IMG/VR virus record: IMGVR_UViG_3300032753_000038
Location: 1 to 53,138 of that record
From: a virus
Length of the DNA: 53,138 nucleotides
Reading direction: 5' to 3' (one strand)
Made by a program: the position numbers and the translations under genes. The notes under the pieces were generated by a model that was not told where the DNA came from, did no database searches, and saw only the letters and a list, made by a program, of their open reading frames with translations. Positions 8,931 to 47,492 of this stretch are shown here, piece after piece (the first letter of the stretch is position 1; every line of letters begins with the position of its first letter).

Positions 8931-10520
8931 TTACAGATTTTTTACCCATACAGCGTTTCCTGCATCATAAAATCTGTTGTAACCCATGTTTGTTGCAATT
9001 TCTATTTCTGTAGAACCAGGTGCTTTACCAATAATTTTGTGTTTCTGAAAAGACATTCTGCTTTTTATATCGTCTATATTTTTAAAATACCAATAGTTTG
9101 GTTTACTGAATCCTTTAAATTCAAATCCAGCTTGCTTGTATACATTACCCTGCCCCCAGCAGAGATCAGCGTATGTTATTAAGGTTGTTGGACCCAAAAT
9201 CAATTTTGCTGCATTGAGTAATTTAGACAAGTTACCTGCTATAGAAATGTCAGATTTATTAGCAAATCTTGTTAATTCGTATTCTGCTTTTTTACTGAAG
9301 CGATTTTTAGATATGGATATAACAGATACAAGGTCGTTGTTATAGAAAGCACCCCAGTGGTATTTAGACCTATGATAACCCTGTAAGTGGTATCGATTAA
9401 GAAAAGCTTTGGCTATTTCTGAGTCTATGACTTTTATATCACATTCTCTAGCACCAATTCTATTTTTAATTAAACCAAATGCATTTGTTAACCTATTTAA
9501 AATTATATTATGTTTATTGTTAAGATCGTGTTCCCATACTTGTATTAAGTTTAACCCTGCATCTTTAGCCATTTTGAATTTTTTAAAATGATAACTTCTA
9601 TCATTTAAAATTTTTTCAGAATGCCACCATATACCATTAAATTCTATAGCAATATGTTTAGAAGGTATTACAAAATCTAATTCAAATGGTTTAATAGTTT
9701 GGCGATCATTTTGAATAAACGGTATTTTGTGCTCTTCTAACCATTGCCTTATGATTCTCTCACCTGACGATTCTGACAATGGCGAACAATTAGGACATCT
9801 CACTCCGTCGTTGCGCAACTTTTGATTGAATTTTAGTTTACAAATATTACATTCCCACGGCCATTCTGTATCACTATCATTCTCTATATAATCAGTTAAT
9901 GTGAATAAATTTGTTGCAGTTGATCTAGCTGCGATAACAGCATCAAATTGCCTAATTCTAGTATTGATTCTAGCTTGTATTACATTTTCTTTTATATGCA
10001 TGCTATTTTCAACACCATAACGAGATAACATAGTTTCCTTCATTTTGGTTTGTATAACATCGCTCTGTGCAGGATGTTCTACTCCAAATTTTTTAAGATT
10101 GGTTTGTTTAACACTATTTTTAAACTCTTTTGTTTTGCTGTAATGTTCTTCTCCAAATTTTTCTATGGATGTTTGTTTAATTTTTTTTGCAAAATCAGTT
10201 GATTTACTATAATAATCAACTCCATATTTTTGTATATTGGTAGCTTTTATTTTGTCTTGACTATATAGAGCGGTGCATTTTCTGCTACAAAATTGTCTAT
10301 ATTCATTTTTATCTGGATGCCAAGAAAGAGTTTTACCACATTTGCATAGAGGTATAGGTAAATTATTGATTGCGTGCCATAATATTTGTCTGCAATTACT
10401 TATACCTAGAGACGATTTGATTTCAAGATAAACATCTTTGAAATCACTTTTCAATAAGTGATCAAATTTTAACTTTTTCCTTGCTAACAATTGCTCAGAT
10501 TCAAATATTAATAAATTCAT
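8931..10520 (-). CDS. Free-standing homing endonuclease, Vsr-like (EDxHD) nuclease with NUMOD-type repeats
   Basis: 529 residues. A first Cys cluster (C59, C61, C78, C82) is a zinc finger. Residues 95-185 hold four copies of a KYGV/FGVEH-type unit seen in phage homing nucleases and thought to bind DNA. A second Cys set (C224, C227, C242, C245) precedes the nuclease core with E254 (SGE), D282 (FELDF), E293 and H300 (IEFNG.WWH), matching the Vsr-like EDxHD fold. The C-terminal 200 residues resemble an acyltransferase-like or DNA-binding add-on (GYHRSKYHWGAFYNN). It sits as an insert between gp55 and gp47, genes that otherwise belong together, with its own promoter and start-site hairpin, as is usual for mobile nucleases such as I-TevI or the Seg proteins. 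The target is probably a gp55 or gp47 allele lacking the insert. Confidence 0.85.
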   Translation of the reverse strand: MNLLIFESEQLLARKKLKFDHLLKSDFKDVYLEIKSSLGISNCRQILWHAINNLPIPLCKCGKTLSWHPDKNEYRQFCSRKCTALYSQDKIKATNIQKYGVDYYSKSTDFAKKIKQTSIEKFGEEHYSKTKEFKNSVKQTNLKKFGVEHPAQSDVIQTKMKETMLSRYGVENSMHIKENVIQARINTRIRQFDAVIAARSTATNLFTLTDYIENDSDTEWPWECNICKLKFNQKLRNDGVRCPNCSPLSESSGERIIRQWLEEHKIPFIQNDRQTIKPFELDFVIPSKHIAIEFNGIWWHSEKILNDRSYHFKKFKMAKDAGLNLIQVWEHDLNNKHNIILNRLTNAFGLIKNRIGARECDIKVIDSEIAKAFLNRYHLQGYHRSKYHWGAFYNNDLVSVISISKNRFSKKAEYELTRFANKSDISIAGNLSKLLNAAKLILGPTTLITYADLCWGQGNVYKQAGFEFKGFSKPNYWYFKNIDDIKSRMSFQKHKIIGKAPGSTEIEIATNMGYNRFYDAGNAVWVKNL

Positions 10521-10580: not shown

Positions 10581-12431
10581 TTAATCTGTCTTTTTTTGTG
10601 CAACTGATTCTGCTGCTAGTTTTTTTGATGCGATTTCGTTTTCTGATTGTCTTGTGTAGCTTGGAGTAGCACCGTGCATTGTTAATAAGTCGTCTCTAAT
10701 ATTTTGGTTCTTTTTTTCTATGTTGAGAACGCGGGTGAAGCTATTGGTCAATGCTGCGGTATAATAGGCGAATGGGTTCGGTGTTTCTGACCTGCTTTCA
10801 TCAAACTGTAAACCAATTTGACTTAATTGTAATAATGCTTGACTCTTCATTTCATCCAGATAGGTATTACCGGTTATGTATGCCTTGCCGTTACGACGTG
10901 CTACAAAACATCCGTATTCTGTTTCTGGGCACCAAACCATACCGTTATAATACGTTGTTGGTTCGTTTGGATGATACTCTTTGCCCCGACCCGAACCGAG
11001 ACCTCGACCTGTCCTGCCGTTGCGCTTACCACCGTGGAAATCGATACACTCCGCTCGTGTAGTGTTGCCTCGAGATGAAAACAAATTCATTTGATAAAAG
11101 TTTGAAGTCTTGCCATATGACGGATGATCTTCAATAAGATAATAATTGGTCTTAATACCTGCTAATGTACACAAAGCCTGTAGGATATCTATACCGTCTT
11201 TGTTTTTTTGTACGTATCTTCTATGTCCATTTGTACGCCATCCGTCGACGTCTATCATAGTGTTAATCAATAGTTCGCGTTGTATATTAGTCAATGACAA
11301 AATAAAGTCCATGCTGAGATTTTTGTTTGGTAATAGACTTGCTATTTTTCTTGAATCTTCTCTTGATATAGCAAATGTGATGTTCTTTTTTCCTGGAGGT
11401 GATTCGCTGAATTTATATCCTAGTTTGATTAAACAATTTCTTATACGATCAGCTTTTGGACCAACGTTTTGATAGATAGTAATACGTTTAATCCCCTTTT
11501 CGTTAGATTCATAGCATCCTTCTGTTACTATCCAACCGGCTAGCTCTACAAAACTATCCTCATATATACCGCAGCCATCTTCAACTGCGCTGCCCATAAG
11601 TATTACTTTGTCTGATTCTATAAGATGTTCGGCCTTAATTAATCCTCTTTCGGTTACAAGCTTGTGATTGGGTGTTATAAGTGCATCCATGCCTCTTACT
11701 GTCAATCGATGCATTAATCCGTCATAATGACCCCTGTATATGCTCTTGATGCGGCTCCATACCAAAGATCCGTTTGAGTATGATAGGATAGTGTCATCCT
11801 CACTGATGTCATTTATTCCCAACCATCCTCTCTTAGTTAGTGCTTGAGTATCTGTATCGATGCAGTAACCCCTCCAGTTACCTCTATGACTGTATCTCTC
11901 TACTAGTTTCATAAACATCATAGCCAATCTATTAGTCATCTTGCCATGAGAGGTATTGAACTGCCCGTTTTCTAATCCTCCTTGCCAATGACTTTTACCT
12001 ACGCATCTAAACTCTCCCTCAACTATTATGAAGTGTTGGAACGGGGGAAAGTTGCATCTCATGTGTCGATTAGCTTCAGTTTTGGCTTTGCCTACCTTCT
12101 CTTCGTTTATGGGTATATGGTCAAAAGTCATAAGTCTTATAACTATACTTTCTTGTGGTACATCGTCTAAGCTAACGTTTATGATTGGATTTTTAATACC
12201 CTTTGCAACCATTTCTTTCTTACGTTTTAGAGTTTCTTGAGTTACTTTACGCTTTCTTGCTTCATCTATAGATGCCTGCGTAACTTTGTCTAAATCATTA
12301 ACTATGATGTCGTAGTTGCTGTAAACAGGATCAATGAACTCGCAGTAACTTTTTTTGCTGGTGTGTATTTCTTCTAATAAATCTTTATTTGTTAGGTACT
12401 TTATCTTTGTTGGGGAGCTGTTTTTCATCAT
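10581..12431 (-). CDS. 55: Late-transcription sigma factor gp55, interrupted by an intein
   Basis: 616 residues: N-extein 1-189, intein 190-522, C-extein 523-616. Joined exteins give a 283-residue protein. The C-extein (TYLDEMKSQALLQLSQIGLQ, then NPFAYYTAALTNSFTRVLN and EKKNQNIRDDLL) matches the late sigma gp55 family of T4-like phages, where the segment corresponds to sigma region 2. Gp55 binds host core RNA polymerase and reads the TATAAATA box at late promoters. The N-extein has the matching MTNRLAMMFMKLVERYSHRGNWRGY segment split across the insertion. The reading frame is intact through the intein, so splicing is expected. ATG 12431 follows AAAAGGAATATG. Longer than T4 gp55 (185 residues) because of an N-terminal extension of around 100 residues, as in marine relatives. 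Confidence 0.9.
   Translation of the reverse strand: MMKNSSPTKIKYLTNKDLLEEIHTSKKSYCEFIDPVYSNYDIIVNDLDKVTQASIDEARKRKVTQETLKRKKEMVAKGIKNPIINVSLDDVPQESIVIRLMTFDHIPINEEKVGKAKTEANRHMRCNFPPFQHFIIVEGEFRCVGKSHWQGGLENGQFNTSHGKMTNRLAMMFMKLVERYSHRGNWRGYCIDTDTQALTKRGWLGINDISEDDTILSYSNGSLVWSRIKSIYRGHYDGLMHRLTVRGMDALITPNHKLVTERGLIKAEHLIESDKVILMGSAVEDGCGIYEDSFVELAGWIVTEGCYESNEKGIKRITIYQNVGPKADRIRNCLIKLGYKFSESPPGKKNITFAISREDSRKIASLLPNKNLSMDFILSLTNIQRELLINTMIDVDGWRTNGHRRYVQKNKDGIDILQALCTLAGIKTNYYLIEDHPSYGKTSNFYQMNLFSSRGNTTRAECIDFHGGKRNGRTGRGLGSGRGKEYHPNEPTTYYNGMVWCPETEYGCFVARRNGKAYITGNTYLDEMKSQALLQLSQIGLQFDESRSETPNPFAYYTAALTNSFTRVLNIEKKNQNIRDDLLTMHGATPSYTRQSENEIASKKLAAESVAQKKTD
10866..11864 (-). mobile_element. 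LAGLIDADG intein in gp55
   Basis: Codons 190-522 (333 residues). Splicing block A starts with Cys190 (CIDTDTQALTKRGWLGINDI); block B has ITPNHKL with the T-x-x-H; block F/G ends GKAYITGN with terminal Asn522 followed by Thr523. The penultimate residue is Gly rather than the common His. The two homing-nuclease helices are LAGWIVTEGC (about 297-306) and LLINTMIDVDGW (about 388-399), the latter carrying the second acidic residue. All splicing and nuclease blocks are therefore present, suggesting a full, active mobile intein. Confidence 0.92.
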
Positions 12432-12522: not shown

Positions 12523-12530
12523 CATAAATA
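12523..12530 (+). promoter_or_regulatory. T4-type late promoter box for the baseplate block
   Basis: CATAAATA, one base from TATAAATA, with a predicted start near 12536 and a 23-nt leader before the ATG at 12559. A 6-bp stem (12507-12512 with 12521-12526) overlaps it. Confidence 0.55.
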
Positions 12531-18238: not shown

Positions 18239-18294
18239 CTATGATAATATGCTGTGTTTATTAAACCATAAATAACACACGCATATTATCATAG
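18239..18294 (+). promoter_or_regulatory. Large inverted repeat holding the gp25 late promoter
   Basis: CTATGATAATATGC (18239-18252) pairs perfectly with 18281-18294. Inside, TGTGTTTATT pairs with AATAACACA with one bulge, for about 23 bp in total. The late box CATAAATA (18267-18274) spans loop and inner 3' arm; the predicted start (18280) is where the outer 3' arm begins, so late RNA cannot form the stem. Confidence 0.75.
18267..18274 (+). promoter_or_regulatory. T4-type late promoter box upstream of gp25
   Basis: CATAAATA with a predicted start near 18280 and a 25-nt leader to the ATG at 18305. Lies in the loop of the inverted repeat 18239-18294. Confidence 0.6.
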
Positions 18295-18304: not shown

Positions 18305-18694
18305 ATGGCATTTTTAAAGCAGAGTCGTTTATTTGTTGGGTACAGTACACTTGATACAACCAGTAAGAAACAGCAATTTGCTGATATTGCATTAATACAA
18401 AGAGATCTCATCAACAATTTTTATACTCGACCGGGCGAGAGGCTTATGATGCCTACTTATGGGTGTGGCATTTGGAATCTGTTGTTTGAACCATTTGATC
18501 CTGTTACTATTGATGCAATAGTGTATCAGGCACAACAAGTAATAAACAATGATAGCAGAGTACAGATGCAAAATATCAATGTACAACAGTTTGAGCAAGG
18601 ACTTTTGATACAGATGGAACTATTATATATACCATATAACGTGATAGATACTTTCTCATTGTCATTTGACAACAGATCTGCGCAGATGGTTTGA
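18305..18694 (+). CDS. 25: Baseplate wedge protein gp25
   Basis: 129 residues. DIALIQRDLINNFYTRPGER with MMPTYGCGIWNLLFEPFD is the signature of the gp25/W-like baseplate family (a lysozyme-like fold without activity, conserved in all contractile injection machines). In the T4 baseplate gp25 joins gp6, gp7 and gp53 in the wedge core and helps start sheath polymerisation. It precedes gp6 as in T4-like clusters. The upstream hairpin with embedded late promoter suggests that its expression is tightly set to late infection. Confidence 0.92.
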   Translation: MAFLKQSRLFVGYSTLDTTSKKQQFADIALIQRDLINNFYTRPGERLMMPTYGCGIWNLLFEPFDPVTIDAIVYQAQQVINNDSRVQMQNINVQQFEQGLLIQMELLYIPYNVIDTFSLSFDNRSAQMV

Positions 18695-21700: not shown

Positions 21701-22085
21701 TAGTTATAAATTGCTTTTTGGTTCACAAGCAGATCCAAGTCTACAAGTAGTCTTTAAGGTAGTCAAAACCTACGGTAGCACTTATAGTGATAACGAAGTT
21801 AAAAGTTTGGTTAAGTCTCAGATAGATGCATATTTTGCATTATCTAATTGGGATTTTGGTCAAAGCTTTTACTTTACTGAATTAGCAACTTATATACATC
21901 TTAACCTAGCAACTATAGTAGCTAGCGTAGTAATAGTACCAAAAAATGCTCAAGCGGTTTTTGGAGATTTATTTGAAATAGATTGCGATCCTGATGAGAT
22001 ATTCATTAGTTGCGCAACTGTATCTGATATACAACTGGTTACTAGCTTGTCTGAAACACAATTGGGAATATCTTCAAATGGCTGA
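18705..22085 (+). CDS. 6: Baseplate wedge protein gp6
   Basis: 1126 residues from ATG 18705 (AAGGA nine bases upstream; an earlier ATG at 18666 lies inside gp25 and is rejected). The N-terminus (DWQVLYTAFTQVNFNAYDFN...FNDWIESSEFVAIIDLISYL and AFRMDLNTRENFLDTAQRRE) is diagnostic for gp6/gpJ-like proteins, which dimerise and link the six wedges into the iris around the hub. The C-terminal part (about 950-1126) with TYGSTYSDNEVK also matches the family. Much longer than T4 gp6 (660 residues); the extra mass is a beta-rich middle. Shares 8 bases with the next gene. Confidence 0.93.
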   Translation: MAITQQQRQKQIFAAEDWQVLYTAFTQVNFNAYDFNSIRQAMVTYIRLNYPEDFNDWIESSEFVAIIDLISYLGTSIAFRMDLNTRENFLDTAQRRESIFRLAQMLNYQPQRCLTSLGLLKITQIVTTQSVYDSSGNNLANVPINWYDQNNPDWYEQFIVVLNATLYGGSQFGNPSESGTVGGIQTDLYAMNNTVIPTSVIPFGASVGGNSMRFELINPDLIPDGTVASQLGQTGYFIERPPNPLNNWYIIYKSDGNGYRSANTGFFLTFKEGNMNKSDFQLDLPIANRVIDINANSINQTDVWVESIDSTGAVQNVWTQVPSVNGFNVIYNSVDNNVRNIFSVITRDNNGQDAVSIRFADGNFGNVPVGLLRVWYRTSNGLQYQIRPTDITNRSFTFSYNDSLNNTYSVAFNTSLQYTVANSQGPETNAQIALNAPAVYYTQDRMVNGEDYNLYPLQSSQALKVKAVNRTYSGQSRYLDINDPTGAYQNTNILADDGMIYSEQLQNRQVVTITNSLTSNMLVANYIQPMVNGTGGLTNTATELRDFFYASYPRQASNNITWNAYGSSVASATGTLYREINPVSLGSYAPYGDPSAYITSGALLNFASSGWVSVSSIIGEGDNLSVSGLTSLGAPLVSLSGPVTNNDVIISIFPAFRTTFTTSELALIAGAASTNQTFGIRYDPLAQAWYIITNDNLDRSGAFSLNFAGNTSSTGIDASWLVQCIYNGSNWLILTRAQRYVVESIQEARFFFANTTKIIDPTTNNAVYDSINILGINSVPGGASALGKNYLWKIKNQYIYPDGYAEPNSVQVTFWDSMQPGLPDNPDQFTTIVNPPGTSGRMIFWQVGLTTDGYNYYYPINLASAQIFVNTSNLPAASSSFWQSYGLAFVQSNNKFYQLSGTTITDVSSNYKARIGRNNLTFMWKHYAPYDQRIDPSITNIIDMYILTSNYDTALRNWIMIGGNSSTEPTPPNTNELSATFSYFEQFKMMTDQIIWHPVSYKLLFGSQADPSLQVVFKVVKTYGSTYSDNEVKSLVKSQIDAYFALSNWDFGQSFYFTELATYIHLNLATIVASVVIVPKNAQAVFGDLFEIDCDPDEIFISCATVSDIQLVTSLSETQLGISSNG

Positions 22086-25000
22086 TACAAAAAGACGCGT
22101 CATAGACCTATTACCGGTCGTTAACCAAACTGAAACTCTAACCAAATTCTTTGCTGCTACTTTAGATAATTTAATGCAGCCAGAAAGTGTTGAGTTTATT
22201 ACAGCATATATCGGTAATAAACCAAGTTGGTATAATCCTTCTACTGATTTTTATGTTAACGAGCCTACAACAGATCGAGCAACATATCAATTGCCAGTCT
22301 CAGCAGTTAGCGTTAATACCTTAAGTGGTATGGTCAATAACATAATGTTCTATGACGACATATTGAACCAATTGTCATTCCAAGGAGCAAATACAAACAA
22401 CCATAGCAGGTTATTTGACCAAGAATACTACAGTTGGGCTCCCCCAATAGATATAGACAAATTAATAAACTATACCAAATATATCTGGTTGCCTGATGGA
22501 CCAGATACAATAACCTTGTTGAATCCAACTGATTATTCCAATGAAATATATAACAACACTCAATATACATATACAGGTGCATTTAGATATGATAGTACTG
22601 GATTAATAGTTAATGGAAGTTTGACATTTACAAACGGTTTAGCAATTATATTATCTGATGATGCAATCTCTTCAAACAATAATACTAAATGGTACATAGA
22701 AGGGGTAGGAACAGGTATATCATTTGTTTTAGATAGAACACTATCTAATCCGGGTTGGGATGTATATACATGGAATACTGCCAATTGGGACGGCGACGAC
22801 ACTGCAAATGATAAGATTTATTGTACAATAGCTAGGAATTCTATTGACAAGAATCAATGGAGTTTAGCTAATAGATGGTTTCATCAAGATATACTTTCTA
22901 TATCAAATACAGTCATAACTGATCAAAGCACATTAAGGGCAAATAGGCCAATAATAGAGTTTTCTAAAGATATCATGCTTTATGACTACGGGTGGTATGG
23001 CCGTTCATCAGTTTATATGGTAATTGATAATATTTCTGATGTATTTGGCACTATAGTTGGTCAATCTAGTTTCACTTATGATGGTATCAAATTAGTTGAT
23101 GGTATGAGGATATTGGTCCTCAATGATACTACCAACACTCCTGTTAACAACAGAGTTTATACAGTTGATGGTTTAACACAATATGGTAGTATACAACTTG
23201 TATTAGCCAAAGACGGTCAAAATGCAGACGGAAGTCCTGCAGTTGGCGATAGGTTAACTGTACAATATGGAAAATATGAAGGTAAAAACCTGTGGTTTAA
23301 TAATTTGAAAGTATGGAGATCTACTGGCCAACAATATCAATCACCTTTCGTACCTTTATTTGATGCATATGATGTTAACGGAAATAGTTTTAGCAATCCT
23401 GTTGTTTACCCAAATAGTAATTTTTCAGGTAATGCTGTATTTGGATATACAAACGATGTTAATAATAGTCCATATGATTCTGTATTGGATCTAAACCCTC
23501 AAAGAGATTCGTTTGGTTCTTTTGTTTTTACTAACTATCTTGCTACGGCTTCTATAACCTATATAGTCAATAACAAAACTATTGATTATAATGGTTATGT
23601 ATTTTACAACATAAAAAATAGTTTTGATAGCAGTAATTGGATATATGGTAATTCGTGGCACAAAGCTAAAGCTCCTAGTAGACAATATATAATTAATGAT
23701 TTTCTAAATATTGTTGTACCTAGCTCTACTACACCAATGGTTTTTAATATCGACCAATTGCCTGCAGAGTATGAAACAGGAACCCTACCTACAATACATG
23801 TATACCTAACACGGAATCAAACTGAGTCAGAGTTAATTAATAGTGTTGACTATTTTACAAGTGTAAACCAACTTACAGGACAGCCACAGGTTACAATAGC
23901 TGCGGGAACCTTAATTACAGGAGACAGAATAACCATAAGAACTTGGAATTCTACAACCCCATCTAATATTACAGGTTATTACGAACTACCTTTAAATTTA
24001 ACAGCAAATCCAAATAACAAAGAGATTGAAACTATTAGCCAGAGCCAACTGTTGCCTCATTTTCTTCAACTAATGAGCAACCAATACGGGTTCGCTGGTA
24101 ATACTATAAGCACAAACAATTATAGAGATACTGCTCAAGATTTAAGTCTAGGTGAGACTATATTGCAACATAGAGCTCCCTTGTTAAAGACTATGCTATT
24201 AAACAGCGGTAATGTTGCTACAGGGCCATTGTCAACAGTTAGCAACACTGATCCTATGATGGCTATGCAATATGCACAAAGAGAATATACGAGATTTTAC
24301 AGCAAATTTATAAGAGCGTTGCTGAATTTGAACAAGAACGGTTATACATTAGGTAATTCTACAAGCGATTGGATCAATAAAGTATTGTCCCAGATAAATG
24401 TAGGAAAGACACAATCTAATCCGTGGGCCAATAGCGGTTATGATACTGTGCAAGCAAGTTATACCTTCCAACAGGCTATAAATCCAACTTATATACCGCC
24501 AACTGCTACTAGGTTGGGTATGGCTCCAGCTTTTCAGCCAGGTGTTTATCTATCTGGAGAAAACATTGTTATTGAAACACATGACGGTAGCAGAATAATA
24601 ATGGAAGATGATCAAGGAAATCCTTTGGGAACTATATCTTCTGGTTACTCTTATACCGATGAGCCAAATTTACTTACTAACCCCGTAGCTAGAGTTTGGT
24701 TGCAATTTGAACTAAACTTGTTTAATGATATGCCAGATAGATATCAAAATGCAGAAGCAACATTGGCATTTGATGTTAGGACCATAACACCTGGTAAATG
24801 GAGAACTGGTGATTATACTCAATCAGAATACATCTCTATATTACAGCCGATGTTTGATAAATGGGTTATAAACAATCAAGTTGACTTTACTGCAAACACA
24901 ACTTTTGATTTAAATGATCAATTCTCATGGAATTATAGCAAACAATATGACAAGCAAGGGTTGCCTGTACCAGGCAATTGGCGAGGTATATACAATTGGT

Positions 25001-28000
25001 TTTATGATACCGATAGACCTCACACGCATCCTTGGGAGATGTTGGGATTTAGTCAGAAACCGTCTTGGTGGGATACCCAGTACGGATTAGCACCATATAC
25101 AAGTGGTAATACGGCTATGTGGAGCGATCTTAGAGATGGTATCATAAGGCAAGGCCCGAGAGCCGGAACGTATTCTGAATGGGCTAGGCCCGGATTATTA
25201 TCTTGTATACCAGTAGATAGTCAGGGTAACTTATTAGCTCCTCTATACTCGGGAACTGTGTCTTCTTTACCAAGTGTTATACAAGCTAGAGCAGAATGGG
25301 TGTTTGGCGACGGCAGTCCTATAGAATCAGTATGGAGGCATAGTCAAGATTTTAATTTTGTAATAGCTGAAATGTCGTACTTGATGAAACCGGCTAGATT
25401 TATAGAATATAATTGGGACACTTTAAGGACTCAGGAGATATTTACTGGTACTGCTGAAACTCAATGGATATACTTAGACACAAACAGCAGAAGATCTAGC
25501 AATCAATTTTATGTACAACGAGAGAACCCATCTACTATAGGACAGGGTATCAACATACCAAATGAAACTACTTTAACATATTACCAGAGTGGAGGGCTGC
25601 AACATTGGATAAGCGAATTCCTCATTAGTAATAGTGTTAATGTTACATCATATTTTGGTAACATAATTCGTGGCGGACAACCTAGGCTATCTCATAAGGT
25701 TGGGGCATTTATTAATAGCAATACCGATCTTCGTGTTACAAGTGACAGTTTTGGAACTATAGGATATAAATCTTCCTTAATTCCAAGTGAAAATATTAAT
25801 GTTTATTTGTATAGAAGTGCAAGCATTGGTTCAAATTTCTACGGCGGTGTGATAGTCAAACAGGTTAGCGGGGGTTGGCAGGTATTTGGATACGACGGTA
25901 TTTCTCAGAAGTTTACGGTAATACCAAGTAACTTAACCGGAGCTAAATCTACACTAACATTAGGAAATGTTGTTGTTACTCAATATAAGATTGGACAGAT
26001 ACAAAATGGTGTACCTGTTATCAATACAATACCGTATGGCACTACATTTACATCCCTACAACAAGTTTATGATTTCTTGATAAGTTACGGTCGATATCAA
26101 ACTAGCCAGGGATGGATATTTGATAATTTCAACAATGCAAACAATACTATGACTGATTGGACACAGTCGGCTAGCGACTTTGTGTATTGGAGTCAAACTA
26201 ACTGGGCAGATGGCAATTTTATAGCCCTAAGTCCTCTAGCAGACCAGGCAGAGTTTACTCAGGAATTTGGCAATATTGAATTTATAAATGGTATAGTGGG
26301 AGGTACTTATCCTGTAGTAGACAGAGCCGGCAATCCAATAGATTCTAATAATTTAGAAATACTTCGTTATGATAGCGACATTGTAGTTAGATCTTTAAAT
26401 GAACAGAGCATATATGGTTTAAGATTGTTTAGTACTACACTAGAACATGTAATGATATTTGACAATCAGACAAGCTTTGGTGATACGATATACGACGACT
26501 TGTACAACATAGCTCAGCAAAGATTAAAATTATATGCATACAAGACTAACGATTGGACCGGTAGATTAGATGCACCAGGTTATTTCCTATATCAAAATCC
26601 AGTTGACAATACATGGAGCATGATATCAAATTTTGAAAAAACAGCAAACGACTTCCGTAAATATTTTAATATCGATCAGCCTAAGAATGCAGATTCCATA
26701 GACGTCATATCAGGTAATGTGACTACTGTAACATCTCAGAACAGTGTGATTGATCGAAGCGATATTGCTGACCTAGCCAAACACATGTTTGGTTATCAGC
26801 AGAGGACATATTTAGAAGATCTCATATTTGAAGATAGCACAGAGTTTCAGTTTTATCAAGGATTTATAAAGCAGAAAGGTACAACTTCTGCATTGACTGC
26901 TATAACAAGAAATATAAACATAATACCAATTGAAGAAAGTTTTGAATATTATGAAGAATTTGCACTGAGGTTGGGAAGGTATGGATCATTCGCGCTTAAC
27001 ACCAATATAGATTTTGAACTTCCGCAACAGGAGTTTGAGACTGACCCTCAGCAGATAACAGTATTTGGCAGCTTGCATTCTAACAGAGAAGAAAATGGTG
27101 TTATAACTTTTATCCAAGGAGATGACAGATTTGTTGTACCGCCAGTTAGTTGGAATATGAACAGGTTCGCTCTTAGAAACTACTTAGGACCAAATTATGT
27201 TACAGATTTACCAAATTCTGGTTATATTGAATTAGGAGAATTAACTTGGACAGTAGGTAATATATCTGCATTAACAACGTTGTATTACAATAATGCCCTT
27301 GATATTACACAGCATGTAGGTAACTCTCAAGTAGCTGACGGAGATACAATATGGCAAACAACAGATCCTAACATAGGATGGACAGCTTGGGAATTTAATA
27401 AATCTCCTGCTAATATCCTATATACTTTACCTAGCGACGGCGCACCAACAACTACTATACAATGCGACAGCCCGCATGGGTTGTATGATGGCGATCTAGT
27501 GACGTTGGATAACATAGGTAATGTAGGTTTATTGAATACCGTCACTTATACAATAGGAAATGTTGATTCAACTGGAACAATGTTCACAGTTCCAGATGTT
27601 ACATATACACCAGGAACCGGCGGTGTAGTATATGCATATAGACCAATAAGATTTGCTACACCGGAATTAAGAGATTCTAATCCTCCGCTTGGTGGATGGA
27701 AACCTGGAGATTTAGCCTTCGTTGATCAAGGAGATGTTGGTGTAAACGGATGGACTGTTTACAGACGAAATTCTACCGGATGGAATGCTATTAGAACTGA
27801 AAATTATAAAGTTGATTCTAGTTTAATTTTGAGTGCTAAGTTATATAGCCAATCTAATTTTAATATATTAGCTACATTGAGTTACTATGATCCTGCTAAA
27901 GGTGTTATACCTGGATTAGCTGATGTAGGTTTAACTTATAAAGGTTCAGTAGATCCTGCCAAATATAACCAAGGTGATACTAGTGTCTATTCATTAAATC

Positions 28001-31000
28001 CATCTAGCGCATGGGGTGCAGAGCACTTAGGCGAAACTTGGTGGGATTTCAGTTCAGTGAGGTATGTAAATTATGAAATTGGCGATGATAGCTACAGACG
28101 GCAAAATTGGGGCAAGATCGCTCCTGGTACCTCCATTAATGTTTACGAATGGGTACGAAGTCCTATATCGCCTTCAAATTGGGTTAATTATGTTGAAACA
28201 GGTCAAAGCTTCGCGCAATTTGGCATCAGTTATACCCCTTCCGGAACGTTAAGGAATTCATCAGATCCATCATGGTGTCAGATAAACGAATATGACTCAA
28301 ATGGAAATCTAAGTATTTGGTATTATTTCTGGGTAATGAATGCATATACATTACCTCTACCTACAGGTAGGAGTTTAACTACTCTTCAGATATCAAACAT
28401 ATTGTCTAATCCTTCTTCTGCAGGAATACCTTGGTTTGCGGCTATAGATGCTAACAACATTATTGTTTCTGGAGTATCATCTTACTTAAACGATAATGAT
28501 ACAGTAATGCAAATATTATACACCCAGAAACAAAATGATTCTAACGATCATAAACAGTGGCAATTGGTTAGGAGTGGGGATGCGAGCTGTGTTATAGACA
28601 ACTTCTTCTGGGGTAAGTTAAGGGACAGCTTAGTAGGTTTTGACGGATTTAACAATTCAGTGCCCGACATGAATTTGAGTACGTCTCAGCGCTATGGTAC
28701 TTTGATAAGACCAAGACAAAGTTGGTTTAAAAACAGGATACAAGCATTAGAGATATATGTAACTCAAGTAAACACCTTACTTAGCCAAGTTGTTATAAGA
28801 GATAATATTAACGTGTCTAGTTGGTCAACATATTTTAATGCTGCGGATCCAATACCAGCTCAGAGTGGAAATTATGATTATGTAGTATCTAGTGTTTCCA
28901 GTCTAAATGCATTAACACCTCAAAATGGTCAGAAGGCATTGGTTCTTCCAAACATATCAACTAATAATCTATGGATGATTTATCAGTTTGAATTTGCTTC
29001 TAATGTTTGGTATCCAATTTTAGTTCAAAAGTACAATACAACTAATTATTGGGATTATGTTGATTGGTATGATGCATCTAGTGGAGTTAGCAGTTCTACA
29101 ATACCAAACTACATTGTATCACAAGAACGCGATCTTAGTACCTTAACTCCGTCTACTGGAGATATAGCAAAAGTATTGAATAATGGTAACAATCTTTGGG
29201 AACTATGGCAATACAGCGGGTCAACTTGGACAAGAGTTGGTTTTCAGTCTGGAACTATACAACTATCAACTAGCTTATATGACGGATCTGCACCTACTAT
29301 AACTGAGTTTGACGAAGGTGGATTTGATTCTGCTGGATTTGATCTAACACCTACAATTGAACTTGCTAACATATTCAATGGTATACTGTATGCTATATTT
29401 GGCACTCCGATAGCCAGCAACACGGCAGAACTGAATACTATATTCTTTTCTATGATCAATTATGTCTTAGCTGAACAAGGATTTGTAGATTGGATATTTA
29501 AGACATCTCACATAGTATTGAATGGATTTAACAACCCTCTATATACAGGAGATCTATATCAGAGCGATAATATTGAAGATCTGTTAAGTTATATTGATGA
29601 AATTAGACCATATAGGAGTAAAATAAGACAGTTTATCAGTGGCAGGACTTCAAATGACAATGTTAACGTTACATCTACTGACTTTGACTTACCACCATAT
29701 AACGGCGAGATACTAGATGTTAAGGTTGCATCTGATGCTAATATCATAGCAAATACAACAAGTTTACAAGCTTGGTATAATAATTATCAGAGCAATCCAC
29801 AACTTATCAGAACACTTAAAACTACACTTGTTTTTGATAGAATAGCAAGCTATCCGCAAGGTTGGGATACCAATACGTGGGACTCTGTATCTTGGCAATA
29901 CGAAGGCGGATCATCTCCTGGCTACGGTGCTTGGGACAGAATTGCCGCATACTATCAGCCAACAGAAGGAATGATACCACTTGGAAGTGACGAACTCATA
30001 AGTGGAACTGCATTTAAAGGTGTGCTGTTAAGCGGTATTGGATTTAATATTGATATAGGATGGATGAACAGTGTATGGGATAGTGAACTTGGCTGGGACG
30101 CCGGCACTAATAACTTCCAATCTTACTTGGATCTCATAATACAAGGTGGTGTAAGCCCACTATATTCGAGCTATTATGGTGACGGTATCACAAAATCTTT
30201 TGATCTCAAACGAGTTCCTATAGATGTACCAAAAACAGTAGTTTGGAGTGATAATATTCTCAGAACTTATGGAGTCGATTGGATCATTCCAAATTGGGTA
30301 GTTGCAATTAACATAATGTCTAGAGGTGCGGGATATCAAGTAGGAGATATTTTATTCCTTGATATTCAACCTTCTGTAGAAGCTGCGCAACTAGCTGTAA
30401 CAGAAGTTGATTCAAACGGCGGGCTTGTATCTGTTGCTATAGTAAGCGGCGGTAATTATGATATAGTACCAAGTGGCACAGTTAGTGTTATATATAGTAG
30501 CAACTATCAGGGATCAGGATCATCTGCTGTGGTACAACCAGTATGGGGAGGTTCTACATTAGTATTCAAGACGCCTCCTAGTAGTTCTAGCACGTTGTCT
30601 ATATTTGTTCTGTTCAGTGGAGAGACTTTTGAACCTGCACCGGCTGGTTACGGAGATATGATTACTGACGGATATTCGTTTGTACAACCAACTGTAGCTG
30701 ATGATCATGCAGAAGAATTATTCAATGCCAAATTGATTAATTCATTGAGATTGGATGTCTATACAGCAGCAGTTGGTGGAAGACCTTCGATATATATTAG
30801 ATCGTATATAACTGATGGAATAACTGATCAATTTGATCTAGGTTTGAAACCGCAAGATGTTAATAGCGTTATTGCAACTCTAAACGGCAATTTACTAACC
30901 TATGGTATAAACAATGACTATGTTATAAATTTCTATACGAATAAATTGGTATTCATTATACCTCCGCCTGCGTCTGGAAAATTACAAATATTCACTATAG

Positions 31001-33171
31001 GTACCGGTGGCACAGGATTTGGAATATCAGTTCCATTTGTAGTTGACCCTGGTTCTAATTATAATATTGGCGATACTATTACAATGGCGGGAAATTTTAT
31101 TTATCCTCCTGTAATAACTGTAACAGGTGTTAAGGCTTCAAGTATAACAATATCATCGCCTGGTACAAAATATACAGTTGGTGATCAATTGATACTGATT
31201 GATGACTATCAAACAATAGAAACATCACAAATTGCACTTCAAGTAACAAAAATAGACGGATTTACTGGTGCTATAATTTCTGCAGAAATACTAAATTCTG
31301 GAAATTATACTGTAAAACCATTAGTTACAACCTGGAGCACGTCAAGCAATGGCAATGGTGCAATAATATTAATTAATTGGGGTGTATCAACACTATCCGT
31401 AAATGATCCTGGTTTATGTGCAATAAAACAGTTTGGATATATAACTCAATCAAGTACAACAGGGTCTGGAACAGGATTAGTAATTGGTGCTAACTACAGC
31501 GATACACTTGGTACAGCAGTGTTCAAAGGTGACGGATCAAATCAAATATTTCCGGTTACATTCCCTCTTACAACCACTGATAAACTTTTGGTAACAGTAG
31601 ATGGTATTATACAAGGGTTTAACAATGTTTCTATTGATCAATTAAATGTTGTAATATATCCGCCGCCTGCACTTAATTCAACTGTTGTTATAACAAGTTT
31701 TAACACAAATAATTTTAGCACAGTTTATGAACAGGAATTTTTAGTAGAAAGCGGCGTTAACCATTTTGAATTACAATATACTCCGGGTAGTAGTTTACCA
31801 CAATATAATAGTATGCTGGTTATCAAAAATGGGTTAGTGTTGAATCCTCCTCCTATGAATAATTTTGTAGCAAATGGCGAAGAGACTATATTCTCTCTAA
31901 ACTTTACACCACCGCCCGACTATCCTAGAGATTTTTATGTTTATGTAGATGACCTAGAGTTAACTAGAGATGTTGATTATACGGTTACAAATGATACGTT
32001 TGTTTTACAAACAACACCGCCAGCTGGATCTAAAATAACTGCTGTATTGACTAATTTAAACCATGGATTTGATTACGATATAGAGCAAGGTAATTTATTA
32101 TTTGTACCAAATGCAGTTGCGGGAGATGACATCAAAGTGTTCACTTTTTATCAGGATGTCAGCTATGGATGGACGACAGACACTTTTGTAGGAAACTCAA
32201 CCGGTGTTTACATATTGTCAGATCTTGCAAGTGATTCAAATAGTGTTATGGTCTTTGTTAACGGAAAAATGAATAATTTGATGTGGGATTATTTAATTAA
32301 TAGAGAAATAATGTATTTTTCTTGGGATTATAATGGTTGGGATACAGTTGGATGGCAAGGATCAGAATTAGTCTCCTCTGTAAACTTCAATGATGCTTCA
32401 ATTCCTCCAATTGGTAGTAATGTAGTTGTAACTTATGCAACAGGTCTACAAAATCAACCAGCTATTGCATGGAGAACATTAATAGATGCAAGTGGTACAT
32501 CTAGCACAACAGCTATAGATGATGCAAGAAAAACTGTATTGTTGAGCAATGTTTATGTGTATAGCAATGAGATAGAAATAGCCGATATGACACTGATCAG
32601 TCCTGCACCTGGATCAATTTGGATTGATAATGAGTTGATTGCATACTTTTCATTAATGCCTGCGGGAACTGATCAATATCCAAATAGAGGTATCATTAGT
32701 ATGCTTAGAAGAGGTGAAAGAGGTACTAGTGATCTACCATCTGCAGCATACAATACTCTGTACTATAATGGAGACGGATCAAACGTATATTTTCCAGCAC
32801 AATCTGGTACACAGCCATTGGCTGAAACTGTATTTGTAGACGGTATGATACAGATTAACACCTCTATAAATCTTGATATTGGAACATATACTTCGGTAAT
32901 AGATCCAAATGGGTTGCCTGCTGGTGGATATATAGTATTTGAACAAGATAGTATACCCCCAATTGGATATAAAAACGTTAGGATAACAAGTTTGAACACC
33001 GAAGCAGAAAACACAACTCCTGTACATCTAAACGGTGTCGAAGTTATCGATGCAGGAACTTTTGTTAATTTGCCTGGTGGTTATCAATGGGAATCTGCAT
33101 CACAAGGTCTACAATATAGTACAAGTGATCAAGCTAAATTTCTCTTAAATCACAGCGGTACAAGGAGCTAA
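22078..33171 (+). CDS. Giant baseplate wedge/structural protein, gp7 position
   Basis: 3697 residues from ATG 22078, which overlaps the gp6 stop (ATGGCTGA); an upstream in-frame ATG at 21994 is inside gp6. N-terminus: DLLPVVNQTETLTKFFAATL then PESVEFITAYIGNKPSWYNP. It follows gp6, where T4 has gp7 (1032 residues), and many marine T4-like phages carry an oversized protein here. The region from about residue 2700 on holds repeated beta modules: a GDG-x-FDL start, a VDG/NG turn, a DY strand, a PP-x-G turn and a V-x-I end, recurring at least five times, and G-x-x-Y-x-V-GD modules in between. The modules look like stalk or Ig-like units. No enzymatic motif found. It uses 21% of the window. Confidence 0.75.
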   Translation: MADTKRRVIDLLPVVNQTETLTKFFAATLDNLMQPESVEFITAYIGNKPSWYNPSTDFYVNEPTTDRATYQLPVSAVSVNTLSGMVNNIMFYDDILNQLSFQGANTNNHSRLFDQEYYSWAPPIDIDKLINYTKYIWLPDGPDTITLLNPTDYSNEIYNNTQYTYTGAFRYDSTGLIVNGSLTFTNGLAIILSDDAISSNNNTKWYIEGVGTGISFVLDRTLSNPGWDVYTWNTANWDGDDTANDKIYCTIARNSIDKNQWSLANRWFHQDILSISNTVITDQSTLRANRPIIEFSKDIMLYDYGWYGRSSVYMVIDNISDVFGTIVGQSSFTYDGIKLVDGMRILVLNDTTNTPVNNRVYTVDGLTQYGSIQLVLAKDGQNADGSPAVGDRLTVQYGKYEGKNLWFNNLKVWRSTGQQYQSPFVPLFDAYDVNGNSFSNPVVYPNSNFSGNAVFGYTNDVNNSPYDSVLDLNPQRDSFGSFVFTNYLATASITYIVNNKTIDYNGYVFYNIKNSFDSSNWIYGNSWHKAKAPSRQYIINDFLNIVVPSSTTPMVFNIDQLPAEYETGTLPTIHVYLTRNQTESELINSVDYFTSVNQLTGQPQVTIAAGTLITGDRITIRTWNSTTPSNITGYYELPLNLTANPNNKEIETISQSQLLPHFLQLMSNQYGFAGNTISTNNYRDTAQDLSLGETILQHRAPLLKTMLLNSGNVATGPLSTVSNTDPMMAMQYAQREYTRFYSKFIRALLNLNKNGYTLGNSTSDWINKVLSQINVGKTQSNPWANSGYDTVQASYTFQQAINPTYIPPTATRLGMAPAFQPGVYLSGENIVIETHDGSRIIMEDDQGNPLGTISSGYSYTDEPNLLTNPVARVWLQFELNLFNDMPDRYQNAEATLAFDVRTITPGKWRTGDYTQSEYISILQPMFDKWVINNQVDFTANTTFDLNDQFSWNYSKQYDKQGLPVPGNWRGIYNWFYDTDRPHTHPWEMLGFSQKPSWWDTQYGLAPYTSGNTAMWSDLRDGIIRQGPRAGTYSEWARPGLLSCIPVDSQGNLLAPLYSGTVSSLPSVIQARAEWVFGDGSPIESVWRHSQDFNFVIAEMSYLMKPARFIEYNWDTLRTQEIFTGTAETQWIYLDTNSRRSSNQFYVQRENPSTIGQGINIPNETTLTYYQSGGLQHWISEFLISNSVNVTSYFGNIIRGGQPRLSHKVGAFINSNTDLRVTSDSFGTIGYKSSLIPSENINVYLYRSASIGSNFYGGVIVKQVSGGWQVFGYDGISQKFTVIPSNLTGAKSTLTLGNVVVTQYKIGQIQNGVPVINTIPYGTTFTSLQQVYDFLISYGRYQTSQGWIFDNFNNANNTMTDWTQSASDFVYWSQTNWADGNFIALSPLADQAEFTQEFGNIEFINGIVGGTYPVVDRAGNPIDSNNLEILRYDSDIVVRSLNEQSIYGLRLFSTTLEHVMIFDNQTSFGDTIYDDLYNIAQQRLKLYAYKTNDWTGRLDAPGYFLYQNPVDNTWSMISNFEKTANDFRKYFNIDQPKNADSIDVISGNVTTVTSQNSVIDRSDIADLAKHMFGYQQRTYLEDLIFEDSTEFQFYQGFIKQKGTTSALTAITRNINIIPIEESFEYYEEFALRLGRYGSFALNTNIDFELPQQEFETDPQQITVFGSLHSNREENGVITFIQGDDRFVVPPVSWNMNRFALRNYLGPNYVTDLPNSGYIELGELTWTVGNISALTTLYYNNALDITQHVGNSQVADGDTIWQTTDPNIGWTAWEFNKSPANILYTLPSDGAPTTTIQCDSPHGLYDGDLVTLDNIGNVGLLNTVTYTIGNVDSTGTMFTVPDVTYTPGTGGVVYAYRPIRFATPELRDSNPPLGGWKPGDLAFVDQGDVGVNGWTVYRRNSTGWNAIRTENYKVDSSLILSAKLYSQSNFNILATLSYYDPAKGVIPGLADVGLTYKGSVDPAKYNQGDTSVYSLNPSSAWGAEHLGETWWDFSSVRYVNYEIGDDSYRRQNWGKIAPGTSINVYEWVRSPISPSNWVNYVETGQSFAQFGISYTPSGTLRNSSDPSWCQINEYDSNGNLSIWYYFWVMNAYTLPLPTGRSLTTLQISNILSNPSSAGIPWFAAIDANNIIVSGVSSYLNDNDTVMQILYTQKQNDSNDHKQWQLVRSGDASCVIDNFFWGKLRDSLVGFDGFNNSVPDMNLSTSQRYGTLIRPRQSWFKNRIQALEIYVTQVNTLLSQVVIRDNINVSSWSTYFNAADPIPAQSGNYDYVVSSVSSLNALTPQNGQKALVLPNISTNNLWMIYQFEFASNVWYPILVQKYNTTNYWDYVDWYDASSGVSSSTIPNYIVSQERDLSTLTPSTGDIAKVLNNGNNLWELWQYSGSTWTRVGFQSGTIQLSTSLYDGSAPTITEFDEGGFDSAGFDLTPTIELANIFNGILYAIFGTPIASNTAELNTIFFSMINYVLAEQGFVDWIFKTSHIVLNGFNNPLYTGDLYQSDNIEDLLSYIDEIRPYRSKIRQFISGRTSNDNVNVTSTDFDLPPYNGEILDVKVASDANIIANTTSLQAWYNNYQSNPQLIRTLKTTLVFDRIASYPQGWDTNTWDSVSWQYEGGSSPGYGAWDRIAAYYQPTEGMIPLGSDELISGTAFKGVLLSGIGFNIDIGWMNSVWDSELGWDAGTNNFQSYLDLIIQGGVSPLYSSYYGDGITKSFDLKRVPIDVPKTVVWSDNILRTYGVDWIIPNWVVAINIMSRGAGYQVGDILFLDIQPSVEAAQLAVTEVDSNGGLVSVAIVSGGNYDIVPSGTVSVIYSSNYQGSGSSAVVQPVWGGSTLVFKTPPSSSSTLSIFVLFSGETFEPAPAGYGDMITDGYSFVQPTVADDHAEELFNAKLINSLRLDVYTAAVGGRPSIYIRSYITDGITDQFDLGLKPQDVNSVIATLNGNLLTYGINNDYVINFYTNKLVFIIPPPASGKLQIFTIGTGGTGFGISVPFVVDPGSNYNIGDTITMAGNFIYPPVITVTGVKASSITISSPGTKYTVGDQLILIDDYQTIETSQIALQVTKIDGFTGAIISAEILNSGNYTVKPLVTTWSTSSNGNGAIILINWGVSTLSVNDPGLCAIKQFGYITQSSTTGSGTGLVIGANYSDTLGTAVFKGDGSNQIFPVTFPLTTTDKLLVTVDGIIQGFNNVSIDQLNVVIYPPPALNSTVVITSFNTNNFSTVYEQEFLVESGVNHFELQYTPGSSLPQYNSMLVIKNGLVLNPPPMNNFVANGEETIFSLNFTPPPDYPRDFYVYVDDLELTRDVDYTVTNDTFVLQTTPPAGSKITAVLTNLNHGFDYDIEQGNLLFVPNAVAGDDIKVFTFYQDVSYGWTTDTFVGNSTGVYILSDLASDSNSVMVFVNGKMNNLMWDYLINREIMYFSWDYNGWDTVGWQGSELVSSVNFNDASIPPIGSNVVVTYATGLQNQPAIAWRTLIDASGTSSTTAIDDARKTVLLSNVYVYSNEIEIADMTLISPAPGSIWIDNELIAYFSLMPAGTDQYPNRGIISMLRRGERGTSDLPSAAYNTLYYNGDGSNVYFPAQSGTQPLAETVFVDGMIQINTSINLDIGTYTSVIDPNGLPAGGYIVFEQDSIPPIGYKNVRITSLNTEAENTTPVHLNGVEVIDAGTFVNLPGGYQWESASQGLQYSTSDQAKFLLNHSGTRS

Positions 33172-44040: not shown

Positions 44041-45126
44041 ATGATATATGATTATGATTCTATAAGATCTGTCCATCTTGAAATAACCAGCAAATGCAAT
44101 GCATCTTGCCCAATGTGCGCTCGTAATAAATTTGGTGGTCCTGATAACGAGTTTTTACCACAGTCAGAACTGACACTAGATGACATAAAACGTATATTTT
44201 CTGAAAAATTTGTCAAACAACTCAAACGTTTATATATGTGTGGTAATTATGGAGATCCAATCGCTGCTAGTGATACTTTAGAAGTGTTTGAATGGCTGCG
44301 ACAAGTAAATCCCAATATTGATCTAGGATTGCATACCAATGCTAGTGCTCGTAATCCTGCATGGTGGGCTACTCTAGCTAAGAGCTTAAACGGCGAAAGA
44401 GATTATGTTAAGTTTGGTATTGATGGTTTAGAAGATACTAATCACATCTATAGACGAGGGACCAGCTGGCAAAAGATAATGGCCAATGCTGCTGCATACA
44501 TAGACGCTGGAGGCAGCAATCCTCAATGGGAATACATAGTTTTCAAACACAATGAACACCAGGTAGAAGAAGCTCGCATGCTGAGTGAGAGGATGAGGTT
44601 CTCACAATTCCGTACTAAGAAAACAGGAAGATTTTTTAGCAATACAAATCTCAAAGGCAAAGATCAGCAAGAAGTATGGAATCGCAATGGTGAGATAGAA
44701 TATTACATAGAAAAACCATCCGATACTCAATATCAGAATGACAGTTTGTCTAAAGAGCAAGAACTTATTACCAAATGGGGAAGCATGCAGACTTATATTG
44801 ATAATGCTAAGATCTCTTGCAAAGTTGCAGCAGAGAAGAGTTTATATATCTCAGCAGAAGGTCTTGCTTTTCCTTGTTGTTGGACTGCAAATCAATTGTA
44901 TGTATGGTATTGGCCTTACAAACAGTCAGAGATATGGACTTTGATAGATCACAACACCGATAACGTTAATGCATTACAAAAAGGATTAAGTTCTGTTGTA
45001 GAAGGTGAATATTTTCGCAGAATTTATGACAGTTGGTACAAGCCAAGTGTATCTGAAGGTAAATTAAGAGTGTGCTCAAGAATATGCGGCACAGACTTTG
45101 ATCAATTTGCGAGCCAATTCAAATGA
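44041..45126 (+). CDS. Radical SAM protein with C-terminal SPASM/twitch-like cluster
   Basis: 361 residues. CNASCPMC at C19, C23 and C26 is the radical SAM CxxxCxxC that holds the [4Fe-4S] cluster and SAM; LEITSKCN fits the first strand. YMCGNYGDP corresponds to the GGE-like SAM-binding loop. C-terminal Cys (SCKVAAEKSLYISAEGLAFPCC and CSRICGTDF) probably bind an auxiliary cluster, as in SPASM or twitch enzymes. It overlaps the next radical SAM gene by ATGA, so the two are coupled. Substrate unknown; these enzymes modify peptides, sugars or nucleotides. Confidence 0.8.
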   Translation: MIYDYDSIRSVHLEITSKCNASCPMCARNKFGGPDNEFLPQSELTLDDIKRIFSEKFVKQLKRLYMCGNYGDPIAASDTLEVFEWLRQVNPNIDLGLHTNASARNPAWWATLAKSLNGERDYVKFGIDGLEDTNHIYRRGTSWQKIMANAAAYIDAGGSNPQWEYIVFKHNEHQVEEARMLSERMRFSQFRTKKTGRFFSNTNLKGKDQQEVWNRNGEIEYYIEKPSDTQYQNDSLSKEQELITKWGSMQTYIDNAKISCKVAAEKSLYISAEGLAFPCCWTANQLYVWYWPYKQSEIWTLIDHNTDNVNALQKGLSSVVEGEYFRRIYDSWYKPSVSEGKLRVCSRICGTDFDQFASQFK

Positions 45127-46523
45127 AAGATTTACCAAGTCCTACATTTTGCGCCTTACCGTGGATACATCTCAGCACTAGACCAGACGGATCTATGAGA
45201 GTATGCTGTACAGCTAATGCTAGCAGCGTTCAAGATCCAGACAGCACCAACAAGACATACGGCGGACAAGTTGGAGTGTTACGTACAGACGACGGTATAC
45301 CAGCCAATCTAAACAATAGCACATTACAAGATGCATGGAACAATGATTACATGCGTAATACACGCAAGATGATGTTGCGCGGTGAAAAACCTCCTAGCTG
45401 TATTAAATGCTATAAAGAAGAAGAAGCGGGTGTACAAAGCAAGAGAAGTTGGGAAACTCGCTACTGGGTTAGTGAATTAGGTTTAGAAGATATCATAGGC
45501 GATACACAAGAAGATGGTTCTGTCAGTCCACAAATACGCTATCTAGATCTTAGGATGGGTAGTAAATGCCAACTGGCATGTGTAATGTGTAGTCCACATG
45601 ATAGCAGCGGATGGGTCAAAGAATGGAATCAAATTTATCCTCAGATACAAAATCCCAGATTGAAGCACAGTAGCAGTTGGGACAACAGAGGTAAAGTACA
45701 CGGTGCCAATTACAATTGGCACAAGAATAATCCTCAGTTTTGGGAACAGCTATACGATCAAATTCCCAATATGAAACAGCTTTACTTTGCAGGCGGCGAA
45801 AGCACTATAATTGAAGAGCATTACGATCTATTGGAAGAAGTAGTTCGCCGTGGGTATGCTAGCAAGATAGAACTGCGTTATAACAGTAATGCAGTAGAAC
45901 TTCCTGATAAGTTATTTGAGCTTTGGGATCAATTTAGACAGGTCAAATTTCACTTCAGTATGGATAGTTACGGTGCTAAAAACGATTACATACGTTATCC
46001 TAGCAATTGGGACGACCTAGTTAAGAACATGCATAGGCTAGATGCAACGGGTCCAAATGTAATAGTTACTACTGCAGTGACAGTAATGGCACTGAACATA
46101 TTGTATGTACCAGATCTAATCAAATGGAAGTTGTCTCAAAATTTCAAGAAGTTTAACACTTGGCCAAATGGCGCAGGTATGATCAATTGGCATTTTGCAT
46201 ATTGGCCACCGCAACTAAATGTCAAGGTATTGCCGGTACACGTCAAAGCTGCTGTGAAAGACAAGTTTGAAGAATTTTATTCTTGGTTAGAGTCTAACTG
46301 GCAACTTGCAACAGGTGTAGATGGTATTTCCGTAAGCAAAGATGAATTTATGAGAAATGATTACGGTATCAAAAGATTGAAGAGCATGATCAGCTTTATG
46401 GAAAAGGAAGACTGGAGCGAGAGATTGCCAGAGATGCTAGAATGGGTTAGCTTGCTAGATAAGATTAGAAATCAAAGTTTTAGTAATACTTTCCCAGAAT
46501 TATCAAAATTATTAGGAGTATAA
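45123..46523 (+). CDS. Twitch-type radical SAM protein
   Basis: 466 residues. The N-terminus has a Cys-rich segment (C10, VCC at 28-29, CIKC at 93-96) like SPASM auxiliary clusters, unusually placed before the core. CQLACVMC at C149, C153 and C156 is the radical SAM motif; YFAGGESTIIEEH is the GGE SAM-binding motif. Matches a group of phage radical SAM proteins with an N-terminal cluster domain. Probably acts with the upstream radical SAM gene on the same substrate. Confidence 0.8.
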   Translation: MKDLPSPTFCALPWIHLSTRPDGSMRVCCTANASSVQDPDSTNKTYGGQVGVLRTDDGIPANLNNSTLQDAWNNDYMRNTRKMMLRGEKPPSCIKCYKEEEAGVQSKRSWETRYWVSELGLEDIIGDTQEDGSVSPQIRYLDLRMGSKCQLACVMCSPHDSSGWVKEWNQIYPQIQNPRLKHSSSWDNRGKVHGANYNWHKNNPQFWEQLYDQIPNMKQLYFAGGESTIIEEHYDLLEEVVRRGYASKIELRYNSNAVELPDKLFELWDQFRQVKFHFSMDSYGAKNDYIRYPSNWDDLVKNMHRLDATGPNVIVTTAVTVMALNILYVPDLIKWKLSQNFKKFNTWPNGAGMINWHFAYWPPQLNVKVLPVHVKAAVKDKFEEFYSWLESNWQLATGVDGISVSKDEFMRNDYGIKRLKSMISFMEKEDWSERLPEMLEWVSLLDKIRNQSFSNTFPELSKLLGV

Positions 46524-46997: not shown

Positions 46998-47492
46998 ATG
47001 ATCAGAGCTATATTTGCAGTTGACCGCAATGGCGGCCTTGGGAAATCAAATGGCTTACCTTGGCCTCATGATAAAGAAGATATGCTGTGGTTTAAGAAAC
47101 ACACAAACCATCAAATTGTAGTTATGGGCAGTGCTACATGGAACAGCAGCATGCCTACACCATTACCAAATCGAGTAAATGTAGTAGTAAGTCGCAATGG
47201 CATTGAAAATTTCAAAGGTGCAACAGCAGTTATCCATCCAGACAATTTAGCAGCTGAACTAAAATATATTGAACATCTTTATACTGATAAGGATATATGG
47301 ATTATTGGTGGTGCAAAACTATTAGAATTGTCAAAACCGGTTATTAGGGAAGCATACGTTACACATTTCCATAATGAATATGATTGCGACACTTTTATAG
47401 ATCTTCCCAATTGGTTACAAGGTACAAATATACAAGAAGAGTCATACGGTAGAAACAAAACATTTAGGGTGTATATATGGAATCATATTTGA
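46998..47492 (+). CDS. frd: Dihydrofolate reductase
   Basis: 164 residues. MIRAIFAVDRNGGLGKSNGL with LPWPHDKEDMLWFKKHT gives the substrate pocket; VVMGSATWNSSM is the NADPH-binding segment and IIGGAKLL the second; FxxEYDCDTF closes the fold. Regenerates tetrahydrofolate used up by thymidylate synthase, which overlaps it by 16 bases, the same frd-td order as T4. No large insertion; full-length for a phage DHFR. Confidence 0.95.
   Translation: MIRAIFAVDRNGGLGKSNGLPWPHDKEDMLWFKKHTNHQIVVMGSATWNSSMPTPLPNRVNVVVSRNGIENFKGATAVIHPDNLAAELKYIEHLYTDKDIWIIGGAKLLELSKPVIREAYVTHFHNEYDCDTFIDLPNWLQGTNIQEESYGRNKTFRVYIWNHI

Follow-up and report, generated by a model that had tools for sequence, protein, structure and literature searches.

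A putative class 1 LAGLIDADG homing intein in the late sigma factor gene (gp55) of T4-type phages

The open reading frame at positions 10581-12431 on the minus strand of a 53,138-base virus record (hereafter the window, i.e., the whole stretch of DNA analyzed) is, judged from its sequence, a T4-type late sigma factor (gp55) gene carrying a LAGLIDADG intein. The reading we favor, with a probability of about 0.93, is that the element would be a class 1, splicing-competent LAGLIDADG homing intein at a recurrent position (site a) in gp55 of T4-type, mostly jumbo, phages. The inteins reported from phages lie mostly in genes for replication, nucleotide metabolism, and packaging. The open-access full texts searched describe no intein in gp55 or in any sigma factor; this essential transcription factor is apparently an unreported, new insertion niche, occupied by an element that is itself a standard class 1 homing intein. 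The original prediction knew of no gp55 intein, which holds for the texts searched, but one had been deposited, unnoticed, in the genome of an isolate, Synechococcus phage B23 (b23_0289, gp289; L082; MN695335.1 174984-176498). The B23 gp55 shares with the window the insertion site and all splicing residues, and its intein is 43-44% identical, whereas the gp55 itself is of the shorter cyanophage type, has Ser at +1, and is annotated as 'hypothetical protein; phage T4-like gp55', with the intein unannotated. Such an intein explains how a gp55 gene carrying it can escape annotation, as in B23. The gp55-gp47-gp46 gene order is the same in B23 and the window.

Anatomy and class of the intein

The window is apparently a fragment of a T4-type myovirus, in which PHROG profiles identified gp55, gp47, and gp46 homologues, a baseplate hub, and virion structural genes. 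Contigs of its relatives, both intein-bearing and intein-free, reach up to 200-520 kb, and the source is therefore probably a jumbo phage. The gp55 gene encodes a 616-aa precursor (N-extein, intein, and C-extein). PHROG 12791 ('sigma factor for late transcription', E = 5.9e-82) matched it in two stretches, with residues 7-190 corresponding to profile positions 4-190, and PHROG 234 (late sigma factor) matched residues 523-603. Homology to gp55 breaks off and restarts exactly at the proposed intein junctions, and profile stretches that are adjacent in the gp55 family are held apart by 333 residues. The N-extein (residues 1-189; 11865-12431, minus strand), delimited by PHROG 12791 and by alignment with intein-free gp55, ends in GNWRGY; the C-extein (residues 523-616; 10584-10865, minus strand) starts with TYLDEMKSQALLQL, where Thr523 would serve as the +1 nucleophile. 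Membership in the T4-type late sigma factors is indicated by the profiles on both exteins, a sigma region 2-like core, the alignment with T4 gp55, and late promoters (TATAAATA) in the same genome. A Pfam search of the precursor gave no match, and a PDB sequence search for gp55 and a close intein gave weak intein matches and nothing else.

The intein (residues 190-522; 10866-11864, minus strand) spans 333 aa from Cys1 to Asn333, and its excision would leave a spliced gp55 of 283 aa (616 - 333). Specifically, it carries, all on the minus strand, the N-terminal nucleophile Cys190 (11862-11864), block B TPNH (Thr253, His256; 11664-11675), a first LAGLIDADG motif, LAGWIVTEG (acid Glu304; 11517-11543), a second, LLINTMIDVDG (acid Asp396; 11241-11273), and a C-terminal splicing region with blocks F and G, VWCPET...FVARRNGKAYITGN (10866-10955), whose last residues are YITGN (Gly521-Asn522) before Thr523. 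The lengths, splicing residues, and two motifs are as originally predicted, and the central claim of a full-length LAGLIDADG intein in gp55 is borne out by PHROG matches confined to the exteins, by motifs and fold, and by homologues at the same site.

In the AlphaFold model of the precursor, most of the intein has a pLDDT of about 90, with weaker values around residues 470-490, and the model matches the TliVMA intein (E = 3.6e-15), PhoVMA, PI-PfuI, PI-SceI, and I-DmoI. The first four share with the gp55 intein a splicing domain and a two-motif LAGLIDADG fold, but they reside in cellular hosts (TliVMA and PhoVMA being archaeal VMA inteins) and are 9-18% identical to it. The two acid-bearing motifs, together with the structural matches to PI-SceI and I-DmoI, identify a putative LAGLIDADG homing endonuclease. 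Because the NCBIfam intein N-terminal model scored 15.4 bits, under its cut-off of 24.5, and Pfam was empty, the intein assignment rests on motifs, homologues, and fold.

Four features bear on the splicing class. Position 1, where class 1 inteins have Cys or Ser, is Cys190; block B has the TxxH pattern (TPNH, 253-256); and the C-terminal Asn is followed by Cys, Ser, or Thr, here as Asn522/Thr523 and likewise in 67/67 homologues. The penultimate His, common in class 1 and non-obligatory, is replaced by Gly521. Loss of this His lowers C-terminal cleavage in some inteins. The penultimate Gly had been considered an oddity, a view that does not survive comparison: the residue is Gly in 64 of 67 family members (Ser in two, Phe in one), and class 1 inteins of mycobacteriophages show weak conservation of the penultimate His, with Gly, Lys, or Ser in its place (Kelley et al., PMC5050341). 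Since such phage exceptions are known, class 1 membership stands despite Gly521. Among the closest systems is the Bethlehem-type RDF/metallophosphoesterase intein of cluster A1 mycobacteriophages, which likewise has class 1 residues, a LAGLIDADG endonuclease, and a penultimate Gly, and in which a Gly-to-His change slowed splicing (PMC5050341). Grouped with it are actinophage DNA methyltransferase, portal, and terminase inteins; the actinophage inteins give full-length tblastn matches to the gp55 intein, but at about 21-28% identity and in different host genes.

Class 3 inteins are marked by Trp B:12, Cys F:4, and Thr G:5 and need no nucleophile at position 1. A class 3 mechanism was rejected here: Cys F:4 and Thr G:5 are present, but the Trp expected at B:12 is missing and Cys1 is kept throughout the family. 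Two positions beyond the block B His, the window has Leu, and the homologue set listed has Ile, Val, Phe, or Met, never Trp. Cys F:4 (window residue 501) is invariant and Thr G:5 common, two of the three class 3 signature residues thus occurring with Cys1 retained; the gp55 intein family is possibly a relative of the class 3 intein ancestor.

Intein family, empty sites, and horizontal movement

Two scans of viral contigs for intein-bearing gp55, after removal of identical inteins, yielded 67 distinct full-length inteins and one natural mini-intein, all at the junction between GNWRGY and TYLDE where the original prediction had proposed to look, in host gp55s down to about 30% identity. The 67 homologues are invariant for Cys1, the block B His, the Trp, Cys, and Thr of block F, the terminal Asn, and the -1 Tyr; the block B Thr is present in 66, and the +1 residue is Thr in 51 and Ser in 16. 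Each of the two endonuclease acids is present in 63/67. At least one catalytic acid is lost in five of the 67 (L023, L084, L117, L151, and L155), all of which keep every splicing residue, as expected if splicing is needed and homing dispensable. On one contig (L028:4556-5008), a natural mini-intein of 151 aa occupies the same gp55 site, without an endonuclease domain and with the splicing residues kept.

We show that near-relative intein-free gp55 is contiguous in alignment across NWRGY/TYxDEM. In 113 alleles that lack the intein, Tyr is universal at -1 and Thr occupies +1 in 111; ranked by local conservation, the insertion site is at the 94th percentile. When gp55 genes were sampled by their C-extein alone, the intein was found in one of 80 among the matches listed, a rough rate, and the other 79 were empty with GY/T, the precise intein-free alleles characteristic of a class 1 host gene. 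Chance and artefact are excluded by the recurrence of the insertion at one and the same site in many independent contigs, with precise empty sites in others. At a single site the intein can be seen absent, full-length, endonuclease-decayed, or reduced to a mini form, which makes the homing cycle readable in one gene. That gene is the master switch of transcription in T4-type phages, and the insertion extends over a very wide range of them.

Intein and extein histories conflict in both directions, and the sequences argue strongly for homing. Inteins are more alike than extein proteins in L002/L005 (93% vs 61%) and L003/L005 (92% vs 65%), and less alike in L021/L022 (59% vs 97%) and in L012/L028 (44% vs 89%), the latter pairing a full-length intein with the mini-intein. 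At the DNA level, the L003 and L005 inteins are 94-96% identical (dS about 0.13-0.16) and the exteins 60-70% with saturated synonymous sites, and identity changes at the intein ends, a sequence signature of movement into the cognate site, as expected of a LAGLIDADG element. Chimeric assembly of L003 is argued against by an identical gp55 protein in another sample (L004). As deep nodes of both trees are weakly resolved, the discordance claim is based on pairwise comparisons and supported groupings (extein L005+L010, 100/100; intein L003+L005, 97/90). Intein presence changed at least 25 times on a 171-gene gp55 tree, an approximate count given that many branches are weak.

In bacterial genomes, the intein family was found at three places, once in gp55 on a phage-like contig binned as Prevotella (L160) and twice in another gene (L161 and L162). 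The latter two, on a MAG contig and in Paracidovorax citrulli (NZ_FNEY01000012), respectively, are distant relatives of about 30% identity, whose host gene differs from gp55 and whose junctions read GAVGGxLF/C...THN/TFKTYS.

Splicing and late transcription

The insertion site aligns to Tyr63/Thr64 in T4 gp55. This position falls within the sigma-2-like domain (about residues 42-122), immediately before a region 2.2-like segment for which binding to core RNA polymerase has been inferred (PMC2988020). Because the site precedes this segment, the unspliced precursor is probably non-functional. We infer that gp55 would first be synthesized in precursor form, with the intein lying between a sigma region 2.1-like helix and the core-binding helix that resembles region 2.2. 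Cys190 would attack, the chain would be transferred to Thr523, and Asn522 would cyclise, releasing the intein and joining the 283-aa gp55 as GNWRGY-TYLDE. In co-infecting phages, the endonuclease would cut intein-free gp55 at the highly conserved site, and repair would copy the intein in. It is likely that gp55 function is lost in the unspliced precursor, so that functional gp55, and late transcription with it, presumably require splicing.

A T4-late-promoter-like octamer of the kind gp55 may recognize, CATAAATA (12523-12530, plus strand), lies 36 nt ahead of the virion gene at 12559, which is divergent from gp55, and [CT]ATAAATA also occurs at 18267 and 33935 (plus strand), 38 and 39 nt before the open reading frames at 18305 and 33974. 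The octamer was observed 7 times against 16 expected, as if avoided elsewhere in the window. These positions lend supporting evidence to a gp55-driven late program.

The original prediction's statement that the rate of splicing would gate late gene expression directly is speculative. A stronger claim would make the intein a co-opted switch, with slow or condition-dependent splicing setting gp55 activation and thereby timing late transcription. We consider this quite improbable. It could draw on the separation of the core-binding part of the sigma factor, on the octamers ahead of three window genes, on the dependence of splicing rate on the penultimate residue in a class 1 phage intein (PMC5050341), and on splicing residues that are invariant across very divergent phages. 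However, the intein sits in only one of the 80 gp55 genes of the intein-blind sample (among the matches listed), the site is unoccupied in near relatives, phages exchange or replace their inteins, and the analysis identified no regulatory feature. Since presence is patchy and near relatives are empty, a selfish element without a role fits better, and splicing as a regulator of late transcription is unsupported. Whether splicing is able to delay late transcription could be tested directly on the gp55 intein.

The element might instead be a dead relic, inactive in both endonuclease and splicing, with gp55 function supplied otherwise. The family does decay, as the lost catalytic acids attest, and the fragmentary nature of the 53-kb record leaves room for a second gp55 elsewhere. 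In the window, however, neither acid nor any splicing residue is lost, the window and L002 inteins differ little at nonsynonymous sites although their synonymous sites are close to saturated, and the relatives bear evidence of recent movement, which together make this reading very improbable. Finally, that the in-frame, stop-free insert in a gene of otherwise normal length is a lineage-specific gp55 domain is scarcely credible and was ruled out, as the original prediction's own alignment check fails to support it: the insert has an intein fold and motifs, is bounded exactly by Cys and Asn/Thr or Ser, differs greatly between near-identical exteins (L021/L022, L012/L028), and is precisely absent from intein-free relatives.

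Neighboring endonuclease, second site, and other features

Returning to the homing intein, a free-standing homing endonuclease gene (PHROG 3339/559, DUF7487; 8931-10520, minus strand) lies directly downstream of gp55 and before gp47. Such a gene is near 11/67 intein-bearing vs 1/104 intein-free gp55 genes (raw Fisher p = 1.6e-4), and a pair test on supported branches of the gp55 tree left 0-1 informative pairs; the association, made of raw counts with few supported pairs, is a lead only. The intein-bearing cases are the window, L002, L004, L007, L023, L034, L095, L117, L124, L127, and L158, and the sole intein-free gp55 with a downstream free-standing endonuclease is L029. In the 'collaborative homing' pairs of T4-like phages (PMC2988022), a free-standing endonuclease gene likewise adjoins the inserted element, but there the partner is an intron, whereas the window element is an intein with its own endonuclease and any co-operation would be putative.

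A second, different LAGLIDADG-type intein was found in the C-extein of gp55 in two relatives, L137 (4150-5124) and L146 (4135-5085), which also appear as L246-L248. Its junctions read I(K/R)N/C...N/CF(R/T)RVLN, intein-free alleles have N/SF, and the surrounding sequence is region 2.4-like. Both inteins co-occur within one gp55 protein in L137 and L146. A profile comparison of site-a and site-b inteins gave no significant full-length similarity, with the first 74 positions aligning weakly. Relatives of the second-site intein (L249, L250, and L252-L255) lie in ribonucleotide-reductase-like and primase-like exteins, as named from reading the extein sequences. A combined proposal, which we regard as unlikely, would treat gp55 as an intein hotspot of long standing, with dissimilar inteins at two sites and at times both within the same protein, and would have late-sigma splicing impose or tune an early-to-late delay, the spread possibly aided by the adjacent endonuclease.

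A search for repeats and inverted repeats around the gp55 gene gave short imperfect pairs and nothing more. Elsewhere in the window, a 3725-aa open reading frame occupies 21994-33171 (plus strand), and two adjacent radical-SAM-like open reading frames (44041-46523, plus strand) lie near a thymidylate synthase gene (47477-48340).
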